From a virus, in IMG/VR virus record IMGVR_UViG_3300003894_000003, positions 1-28,487 of that record: 28,487 bases of DNA; one strand, given 5' to 3'. Shown one piece after another: positions 24,014-25,233 of this stretch (the stretch's first letter is position 1; each line of letters opens with the position of its first letter). Under the pieces are notes generated by a model. It had not been told where the DNA came from and made no database searches. It saw only the letters and a list, made by a program, of their open reading frames with translations. The translations under genes were made by a program, and so were the position numbers.

Positions 24014-24180
24014 GATGGATCTGTGATGAGCGCAGAAAACAATGGCTGCGGGCCATCCGCACAGGGGAATCAGAATGGACGATTCGCCAAAAGAAAAAAC
24101 TTTATTACAAAGCATTAGAAAAGGCATTGAAAAAGAAAAATGACACACGGCAGTCTATTCAGCGGCATCGGGGGGATTGA
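23992..24180 (+). CDS. Small basic helical protein before methyltransferase
   Basis: A 62-residue protein with strong ribosome site (GGAGGAAAC) before the ATG at 23992. It is basic and helical (RWICDERRKQWLRAIRTGES, RQKKKLYYKALEKALKKKND). It overlaps the methyltransferase start by 41 bases. No family recognised; a nucleic-acid-binding role is suggested by composition. Confidence 0.6.
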   Translation: MSEMQTLRWICDERRKQWLRAIRTGESEWTIRQKKKLYYKALEKALKKKNDTRQSIQRHRGD

Positions 24181-24901
24181 TCTTGGATTTGAGTGGGCCG
24201 GTATCGAAACCAAATGGCAAGTGGAAATTGATCCATATTGCCGGGAACTCTTGGGTAAACGCTTTCCCAATGCAAAACAATTTGAAGATGTTAAAACAGT
24301 TGGCAGCCACAATCTTGAAAAAGTGGATATTGTTTCCGGGGGATTCCCCTGCCAGGACATTTCCATCGCCGGGAAGGGGAAGGGATTAGCGGGTGAAAGG
24401 TCCGGTCTTTGGTCAGAGTTGCACCGCATTATTGGCGAGTTACGACCCCGATTTGCGTTCATTGAGAACGTCCCAATGCTCACTATTCGGGGGGGGGTCA
24501 GAGTTATTGCTGACCTTGCCGAAATCGGGTATGACGCAGAATGGACGACTTTATCAGCTTCAAATGTCGGTGCTAACCACAAAAGGGAAAGGCTCTGGAT
24601 TGTTGCCTACCCCGAGAGCCAGCGATTACAAACGAATAAAATTCAAGAAAGAGAGTTTGGAGAAGGTGATAAAAAAGAACCAAAACAATGGAAACAATTT
24701 CTCACTATCAATGCCGGAAATTATTACATGGAAAATTGGGAAGCCTTTGAATCTGAACTTTGTGGAACTGATTATGGGGTTCCCGGAGAACTGGACAGAC
24801 TTAAAGGCCTCGGTAACGCCGTCGTGCCGCATATCCCCTATATCATCGGAAAGCGACTCAAAGAATTATGCCAAAAAAACCAAGCCGAAAAACCCTCGTA
24901 A
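24140..24901 (+). CDS. DNA (cytosine-5) methyltransferase, orphan
   Basis: This 253-residue enzyme adds a methyl group to cytosine C5 in DNA. Motif I is FSGIGGIDLGFE (7-18), motif IV GGFPCQDIS with catalytic C71, motif VI ENV (109-111), motif VIII KRERLW (148-153) and motif X GLGNAVVP (223-230). The variable target region between VIII and IX is short (about 160-215), so the protein is near the lower size limit. No restriction gene is visible, so it probably protects phage DNA or marks it. A run of nine G at 24489-24497 lies between motifs VI and VIII, and a second open frame overlaps the 3' two thirds. The domain call is firm; the target sequence is unknown. Confidence 0.92.
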   Translation: MTHGSLFSGIGGIDLGFEWAGIETKWQVEIDPYCRELLGKRFPNAKQFEDVKTVGSHNLEKVDIVSGGFPCQDISIAGKGKGLAGERSGLWSELHRIIGELRPRFAFIENVPMLTIRGGVRVIADLAEIGYDAEWTTLSASNVGANHKRERLWIVAYPESQRLQTNKIQEREFGEGDKKEPKQWKQFLTINAGNYYMENWEAFESELCGTDYGVPGELDRLKGLGNAVVPHIPYIIGKRLKELCQKNQAEKPS

Positions 24902-24911
24902 GAAACCTTGA
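24393..24911 (+). CDS. Second reading frame nested in the methyltransferase gene
   Basis: A 172-residue frame in +1 register overlaps residues 85-253 of the methyltransferase and extends past its stop. It begins with a GTG preceded by a purine-rich ribosome-like site (AAGGG, eight bases away). It contains ASYDPDLRSLRTSQCSLF, LPKSGMTQNGRLYQ, LLPTPRASDYKR and LNLNFVELIMGFPENWTDL. I recall phage proteins with the same order of motifs, so this may be a genuinely translated overprinted gene. The alternative is that conservation of the methyltransferase forces these motifs in frame +1. Its last 44 bases overlap a third frame, the start of the NinG-like gene. Confidence 0.5.
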   Translation: MKGPVFGQSCTALLASYDPDLRSLRTSQCSLFGGGSELLLTLPKSGMTQNGRLYQLQMSVLTTKGKGSGLLPTPRASDYKRIKFKKESLEKVIKKNQNNGNNFSLSMPEIITWKIGKPLNLNFVELIMGFPENWTDLKASVTPSCRISPISSESDSKNYAKKTKPKNPRKKP

Positions 24912-25233
24912 TAAAGCCGTATCACAATATATCAGAAACCGGGACAAATGCTGCGTCCAGTGCGGCTCTACGGAACGCCTCACGAATGGTCATATCTTCA
25001 CCCGGAAAAACTATTCAACACGGTGGGACATATCCCATGACGGCAACTGTCATACACAATGCTGGCCGTGTAATTATAAACATGGCTCTGACCAATGGCC
25101 TTATTTCCGGTGGTACATCGACAAATTCGGTCAAGAAAAATTCGACGAACTGCGAAGGCGGCACAAAACAATCAGAAAATTTAAAAACTATGACCTGGAA
25201 GAATTGTTAGAGAAGACTCGTGAGTTACTATAA
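24868..25233 (+). CDS. ninG: NinG/Rap-like recombination nuclease
   Basis: The 121-residue protein has a basic N-terminus, then a zinc-binding HNH-type core: CCVQCGSTERLTNGHIFTRK (28-47, metal C and H residues), NCHTQCWPCNYKHG (60-73). It is followed by DQWPYFRWYIDKFGQEKFDE (75-94). This arrangement matches lambda NinG/Rap family proteins that process recombination intermediates. The ATG overlaps the methyltransferase stop region. The family call is good, though length is shorter than in lambda (about 200). Confidence 0.8.
   Translation: MPKKPSRKTLVRNLDKAVSQYIRNRDKCCVQCGSTERLTNGHIFTRKNYSTRWDISHDGNCHTQCWPCNYKHGSDQWPYFRWYIDKFGQEKFDELRRRHKTIRKFKNYDLEELLEKTRELL

Follow-up and report, generated by a model that had tools for sequence, protein, structure and literature searches.

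Two overlapping reading frames of a phage gene very probably encode the halves of a split C5 cytosine DNA methyltransferase

The DNA analysed here (the window, a viral stretch of 28,487 nucleotides corresponding to IMG/VR record IMGVR_UViG_3300003894_000003) carries the gene of a C5 cytosine DNA methyltransferase subunit, alpha, and a second gene, beta, which lies over it in the +1 frame (Table 1). A previous sequence-only reading had described a 172-codon +1 frame inside the methyltransferase gene, preceded by a purine-rich site. Both features are present: the frame runs from the GTG at 24393 to a stop at 24911, the methyltransferase gene occupies 24140-24901, the two overlap by 509 nt in different frames and the G/A-rich stretch GGGAAGGGGAAGGGA precedes the GTG. 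Because of the in-frame TAG located immediately upstream, beta cannot start further 5'. The three motif correspondences between the frames that this reading had pointed out proved exact by coordinates: in beta, SLRTSQ (24459-24476) sits over alpha ENV (24464-24472), LPKSGMTQNGR (24516-24548) over AEIGYDAEW (24518-24544) and MGFPENWTDL (24774-24803) over GVPGELDRLKGLG (24776-24814). The recognition and motif-IX-like part of beta has the signature LNxNFVExxMGFPxxWTDL. No restriction gene was seen beside the pair within the window. At the 3' end, the first 34 bases of a NinG-like gene (24868-24901) overlap the ends of both alpha and beta, so that all three forward frames are coding, and a similar arrangement is kept in L006, L007 and L302.

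Table 1. Features of the alpha/beta locus (positions in the window)
Feature	Position	Strand	Basis
Alpha, C5 cytosine DNA methyltransferase large (catalytic) subunit, frame 0, 253 aa	24140-24901	+	PF00145, phrog_363, AF2
Alpha motif I SLFSGIGG, SAM binding	24152-24175	+	Sequence; columns near-invariant
Alpha motif IV PCQ, catalytic Cys71	24347-24355	+	Sequence; P70 and C71 invariant
G/A-rich ribosome-binding-like site GGGAAGGGGAAGGGA before beta, coded by the alpha AGKGKG loop	24371-24385	+	Sequence; anti-SD test
TAG stop in the +1 frame, just 5' of beta	24387-24389	+	Sequence
Beta, +1-frame protein, 172 aa, GTG start	24393-24911	+	phrog_1008 match
Beta N-terminal part (LASYDPDLRSLRTSQ, LPKSGMTQNG), overprinted on alpha motifs VI-VIII	24393-24599	+	Both frames constrained
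Alpha motif VI ENV	24464-24472	+	Sequence; E109 and N110 invariant
Alpha motif VIII HKRER	24578-24592	+	Sequence; R149 and R151 invariant
Beta presumed target-recognition region, starting LLPTPRASD	24600-24746	+	dSN/dNS 0.60 [0.44-0.79]
Alpha residues 170-220, low-confidence, weakly constrained linker beneath the beta recognition and IX segments	24647-24799	+	AF2, rates
Beta motif-IX-like segment LNLNFVELIMGFPENWTDL	24747-24803	+	dSN/dNS 0.35 [0.24-0.49]; type 2 alphas; L302-L305
Alpha motif X RLKGLGNAVVPHIPYIIG	24797-24850	+	Sequence; G225 and V229 invariant; stretch after beta end, dSN/dNS 3.7
NinG-like gene	24868-25233	+	PF05766, E=5e-13

Alpha is recognized by the methyltransferase profile PF00145 (E=2.7e-44), although the match covers only profile positions 2-186 of 324, by TIGR00675 above its cut-off and by phrog_363 (E=3.1e-75). 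It possesses motifs I, IV (PC), VI (ENV) and VIII and the large-domain fold of single-chain C5 methyltransferases, along with a motif X (GNxVxP) at its C-terminus, RLKGLGNAVVPHIPYIIG. A motif-pattern search found no motif IX in the alpha of the window, which thus does not combine a recognition domain and motif IX with the catalytic motifs in one chain. In enzymes of the M.HhaI type, motif IX and the recognition domain are part of a small domain facing the DNA major groove (PMC3404938). AlphaFold models were run on 45 alphas. For alpha, block pLDDT values are 83-98 over residues 1-160 and 44-60 over residues 170-220, the large domain and the C-terminal helix being modeled with confidence and helix 231-249 being ordered. 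M.HhaI is the best solved-structure match (Z 25.5, rmsd 2.2 over 202 residues), and alpha is ordered like this enzyme apart from residues 170-220. This low-confidence stretch coincides exactly with the variable region of beta and LNLNFVELIMGFPENWTDL. Alpha therefore holds motifs I-VIII and X and, judging from the profile match and these models, no usable recognition domain.

Beta matches phrog_1008 (E=3.6e-17), as do 58/58 aligned relatives. Profile searches of Pfam, NCBIfam and the PDB gave no methyltransferase match, the PDB matches being at chance level, and beta contains no named domain of Pfam or NCBIfam. Modeled alone, it yields a poor AF2 structure (pLDDT 64, pTM 0.25), with which Foldseek returned only two matches under E 0.001, both viral, and from which no fold can be read. 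The families phrog_363 and phrog_1008, direct sequence relatives of alpha and beta respectively, are both labelled 'DNA methyltransferase' and are listed apart; no statement was seen that they represent two frames of one locus or the halves of one enzyme. Both coding sequences have been deposited by annotators in some phages, notably Paenibacillus phage Redbud, whose beta is recorded as REDBUD_51 'g50 internal gene', and Streptomyces phage Samy. The record of Streptomyces phage phiBT1 (L005, 1351-2280) has no annotation of the beta ORF, and the partner, 9.1, bears the remark 'DNA methylase may be inactive'.

The first reading had left open whether both frames are translated and selected or whether the second is a by-product, its recurring motifs merely mirroring, under biased codon use, those of the methyltransferase. 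Considered by itself, the open +1 frame of the window is only mildly unusual: recodings of alpha that draw on its own codon usage leave 167 or more consecutive codons open in 1.2% of trials, which is not astronomically rare and to this extent favors an untranslated frame. Comparison with other loci contradicts it. Relatives were collected from viral contigs with the alpha protein only, as a guard against bias, and in 81/81 of these loci, the window included, the +1 frame has no stop between motifs VI and VIII. Among 115 non-redundant relatives, recoding predicts 10.9 in which the tested stretch is open, and 112 are observed; among the three others, one insertion and one stop upstream of the conserved part are effects of the stretch chosen, and the third locus (L037) has a single internal TAG. 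Likewise, the +1 frame scores 1.55 BLOSUM units per column versus 0.15 after recoding. The N-terminal part of these genes, taken as a control, gives 0.03 versus -0.02 per column. Since this control is nearly flat, ancestry shared at silent sites does not explain the likeness of the +1 proteins. Wobble identity at conserved fourfold codons, for which 0.255 is expected, is 0.27-0.33 over alpha codons 1-90 and 0.34-0.67 over codons 91-160, the drop in synonymous variation of frame 0 being confined to the overlap.

A further control is provided by 12 bacterial genomes which also carry an alpha/beta pair. In these genomes, 13/13 C5 methyltransferases matching all or most of PF00145 have one to five +1 stops over motifs VI-VIII, while partial enzymes (profile about 1-168) with the beta signature have none. 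The partial enzyme of L287/L300 is open in the +1 frame over the same motifs and has no beta signature. A weak mirror effect is nevertheless real: +1 frames of full-length streptococcal enzymes (phages MM1 and 5093) contain SGMMWNGK-like stretches and score 12.8-14.5 bits against the beta profile. C5 methyltransferase ORFs which overlap completely in different frames have indeed been reported in Streptococcus phages (PMC5601072). In contrast to the window, frame 0 of MM1 and 5093 is full-length and has its own motifs IX and X, and their internal ORFs look like by-products belonging to a different system. In phage MM1 (L309, 7480-8637 and 7631-8056), ORF14, annotated 'DNA methyltransferase', represents the +1 frame over a full-length enzyme that has motifs IX and X of its own, and this annotation is probably a by-product. 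The suspicion that annotators had been misled by such frames fits ORF14, which scores 12.8 bits over a full-length, monomer-like methyltransferase, and does not apply to the window.

Which frame is selected where was examined from the substitutions that distinguish related loci in 28 disjoint pairs, sorted by their effect on each frame with a simple counting scheme (not OLGenie). The ratio dSN/dNS relates changes silent in frame 0 and altering the +1 frame to changes altering frame 0 and silent in the +1 frame. From 5.3 in the N-terminus before beta, it falls to 1.8 over motifs VI-VIII, to 0.60 [0.44-0.79] across the variable region and to 0.35 [0.24-0.49] within the motif IX segment, then rises to 3.7 past the end of beta; two divergence classes give the same picture. 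Over motifs VI-VIII, dNN/dNS of the +1 frame is 0.32 [0.25-0.40] and dNN/dSN of frame 0 is 0.18 [0.14-0.22]; in the motif IX segment, the +1 value is 0.23 [0.14-0.32], and in the variable region, the frame 0 value reaches 0.79. From these ratios, it follows that selection acts on alpha alone on either side of beta and on both frames over motifs VI-VIII, and that from motif VIII to motif IX beta is under stronger constraint than alpha.

As judged by comparison of related loci, both frames are thus protein-coding and under selection, which supports dual coding as the answer to the alternative raised by the first reading: the stop-free loci, the synonymous constraint limited to the overlap and the +1 dNN/dNS values all agree, and neither the frequent +1 stops nor the neutrality conditioned on frame 0 which had been named as counter-evidence was seen. 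With a dSN/dNS below 1 after motif VIII, stops in every full-length enzyme of the same genomes and the recoding and wobble results, an untranslated by-product is rejected for the window and is, in our estimation, extremely improbable. Constraint at the nucleotide level, such as an RNA structure or a regulatory site conserving the overlap instead of a second protein, has a negligible probability. We found no positive evidence for it, conservation tracks the +1 codon phase, synonymous +1 changes are tolerated (dNS being well above dNN) and stops are absent over long stretches across phyla.

Regarding the way beta is produced, the best start candidates are located 24-26 codons 5' of ENV in 49/111 loci, and the G/A-rich stretch preceding them is coded by the AGKGxG loop of alpha. 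The anti-Shine-Dalgarno energy at the beta start (-5.49) has a slight advantage over that of recoded genes (-4.86, p=0.003). This modest support suggests that beta is most likely initiated independently, at GTG 24393. Alternatively, beta could be made exclusively by a programmed +1 frameshift from alpha, giving a single fused chain with motifs I-VIII, the recognition region and motif IX. Such a chain would suit the type 3 loci described below (Streptomyces phages, L029 and L030), in which alpha ends just after motif VIII and beta goes on with the recognition region and motifs IX and X. However, constraint on the +1 frame begins about 70 codons 5' of a useful shift point, start codons with G/A-rich sites upstream cluster at one place, and a single shift would lose motif X where it lies in frame 0. 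As sole source of beta, programmed frameshifting is therefore unlikely, and we accord it a low probability.

The location of motif IX among relatives gives further indications on the function of beta. With a strict motif pattern, motif IX was found in beta in 185 loci, in alpha in 9 and in both frames in 0/267; a looser pattern gave 14 'both frames' loci, whose alpha matches look like chance by eye. Three types of loci can be distinguished. In type 1, motif X remains in frame 0. In type 2 (L015, L021, L023-L026 and L028), an IX-like segment, LNPVFVEYMMGLPMGW, immediately precedes motif X in the alpha frame. These loci retain beta despite alpha having its own motif IX, which implies that beta must do more than supply this motif. 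In type 3 (Streptomyces phages Samora, Samy and phiBT1, L029 and L030), the truncated alpha is accompanied by a beta which contains the recognition region, motif IX and motif X altogether (L002, L003, L005, L029 and L030).

Four additional loci, L302-L305, have the same two-frame arrangement with a different, DNMT3-like core. Their +1 frame, which includes YSPTIRT, reads YSPTIRTPKGGGHQPLKLKK...LTPEELEKIMGFPQGWTD and gives a weak PDB match to DNMT3A/3B (E=0.017), 25/27 matches being to DNMT3. After motif VIII, it is nearly invariant (dSN/dNS 0-0.1) while frame 0 changes. Though weak by E-value, this is the best sequence link of MGFPxxWTD to motif IX, to which position and pattern add. In the window, the beta segment is apparently motif IX, as suggested by short motifs, position, exclusivity between frames and these relatives. 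In L302-L305, as also in L008 and L125, the DNMT3-like core replaces the central portion of the gene, PC through motif IX, the window-like ends and the frame split being kept.

In one genome scan, performed with a narrow beta alignment since 18 diverse betas aligned together proved too divergent, alpha and beta were in +1 overlap at 79/80 loci from many phyla, the exception being at a contig end. Neither a stand-alone beta nor an in-frame alpha-beta fusion was found at the 80 genome loci, and beta was never found without alpha among the loci examined. Pieces of the other profile occur in one ORF in L198, L231 and L245 only, where motif IX, or a frame switch, lies in the alpha frame. Comparison of the loci examined shows that alpha lacks what beta has and that neither is present without the other. 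The recognition region is apparently in beta, as suggested by the constraint on this frame and by the structure model of alpha. A translated beta could have a function unrelated to DNA methylation, for instance anti-defence, and be simply parked on the methyltransferase gene; its lack of a named domain and the failure to find relatives of its N-terminal half outside these loci are in keeping with such a role. That beta is never without alpha in the loci examined, that motif IX occurs in either frame and never in both, and that alpha has no recognition domain argue to the contrary, and we regard an unrelated function as improbable.

Collectively, alpha and beta very probably constitute a split C5 methyltransferase, one locus giving two proteins that form a heterodimer. 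This function of the second protein is a proposal of the present analysis and was absent from the first reading. What we infer for the pair, namely separate initiation, complex formation, catalysis, target site and biological use, can be outlined as follows. Alpha, with motifs I-VIII, a linker and then motif X, would bind SAM and hold the catalytic cysteine. Beta would comprise the N-terminal part overprinted on motifs VI-VIII and, C-terminal to it, the target-recognition region and the motif IX that alpha is without. Most likely, the two assemble into one active heterodimeric methyltransferase, in which beta would lie across the DNA major groove, pick the site and complete the DNA cleft, with alpha flipping and methylating the cytosine. 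Because no restriction gene was seen beside the locus, the locus would likely serve to methylate phage (or host) DNA and so shield it from restriction.

Among known systems, the pair is best read as closest to M.EcoHK31I, likened by motif layout and not by sequence; the beta polypeptide of this system is reportedly similar in size to that of the window and encoded inside the alpha gene in another frame. M.EcoHK31I is a two-polypeptide C5 methyltransferase recognizing YGGCCR (Lee et al. 1995, as described in PMC3404938), whose large subunit has motifs I-VIII, motif X and a predicted recognition domain, the small polypeptide containing motif IX only (PMC3404938). The alpha of the window similarly has motifs I-VIII and X without IX, which is in the small polypeptide. 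In contrast to M.EcoHK31I, whose predicted recognition domain is in the large subunit, the corresponding region of the window is placed in beta (dSN/dNS 0.60, low-confidence alpha linker), and the pair belongs to a phage without a restriction gene seen adjacent. The window DNA has no match in E. coli genomes. M.AquI, another two-polypeptide C5 methyltransferase, is split in the variable region (PMC3404938), between motifs VIII and IX, the two pieces forming one enzyme. Type 3 loci resemble it, having motifs IX and X in the second protein; the window differs in that its motif X is in alpha and its genes overlap in different frames. Finally, in the ShiLan case, an out-of-frame HNH homing endonuclease is inserted in phage methylase genes (PMC11855218). 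There too, a phage methylase gene conceals a second protein in another frame, but by insertion, whereas the overlap of the window falls on the methylase core itself. No HNH family was among the Pfam and PHROGs matches of beta, and a hidden element of this type was rejected on this basis. In a literature search that was incomplete, we found neither a published selection test on both frames nor a claim of two enzyme halves.

As to its origin, we lean slightly towards an ancient case of overprinting, retained by bacterial phyla and their phages, in which the first ~70 residues of beta arose de novo over motifs VI-VIII, the recognition half of the methyltransferase having slipped into the +1 frame, and the boundary between motifs IX and X shifted between frames by lineage (types 1, 2 and 3). 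An enzyme core that ranks among the most conserved would in this case encode its own partner subunit. In the window, one stretch of DNA very probably specifies, in two frames, the catalytic and the DNA-recognition halves of one cytosine methyltransferase. Annotators usually overlook or misname this arrangement, which occurs in phages and in bacteria belonging to many phyla. Long same-strand overlaps with both frames shown to be selected are rare, and the recurrence of this one over many phyla amounts to hundreds of natural replicates in which the evolution of two proteins on a single DNA can be followed. In addition, a protein widely annotated as 'hypothetical protein' or as a second 'DNA methyltransferase' becomes the object of a testable claim, that of a missing recognition subunit. 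If alpha is cloned or assayed alone, or recoded for expression, beta is silently destroyed and the enzyme could seem inactive; similarly, gene callers which forbid nested genes lose one half.

Minor variations of the arrangement were also observed. In L144 and L145, beta stops before motif IX while alpha retains motif X, possibly through a frameshift or a sequence error. In L263, the beta frame appears to contain motifs IX and X in one piece (LMGFPPGVDRRRALGNAVVP), as though motif X had been brought into beta by an indel at the boundary of the two.
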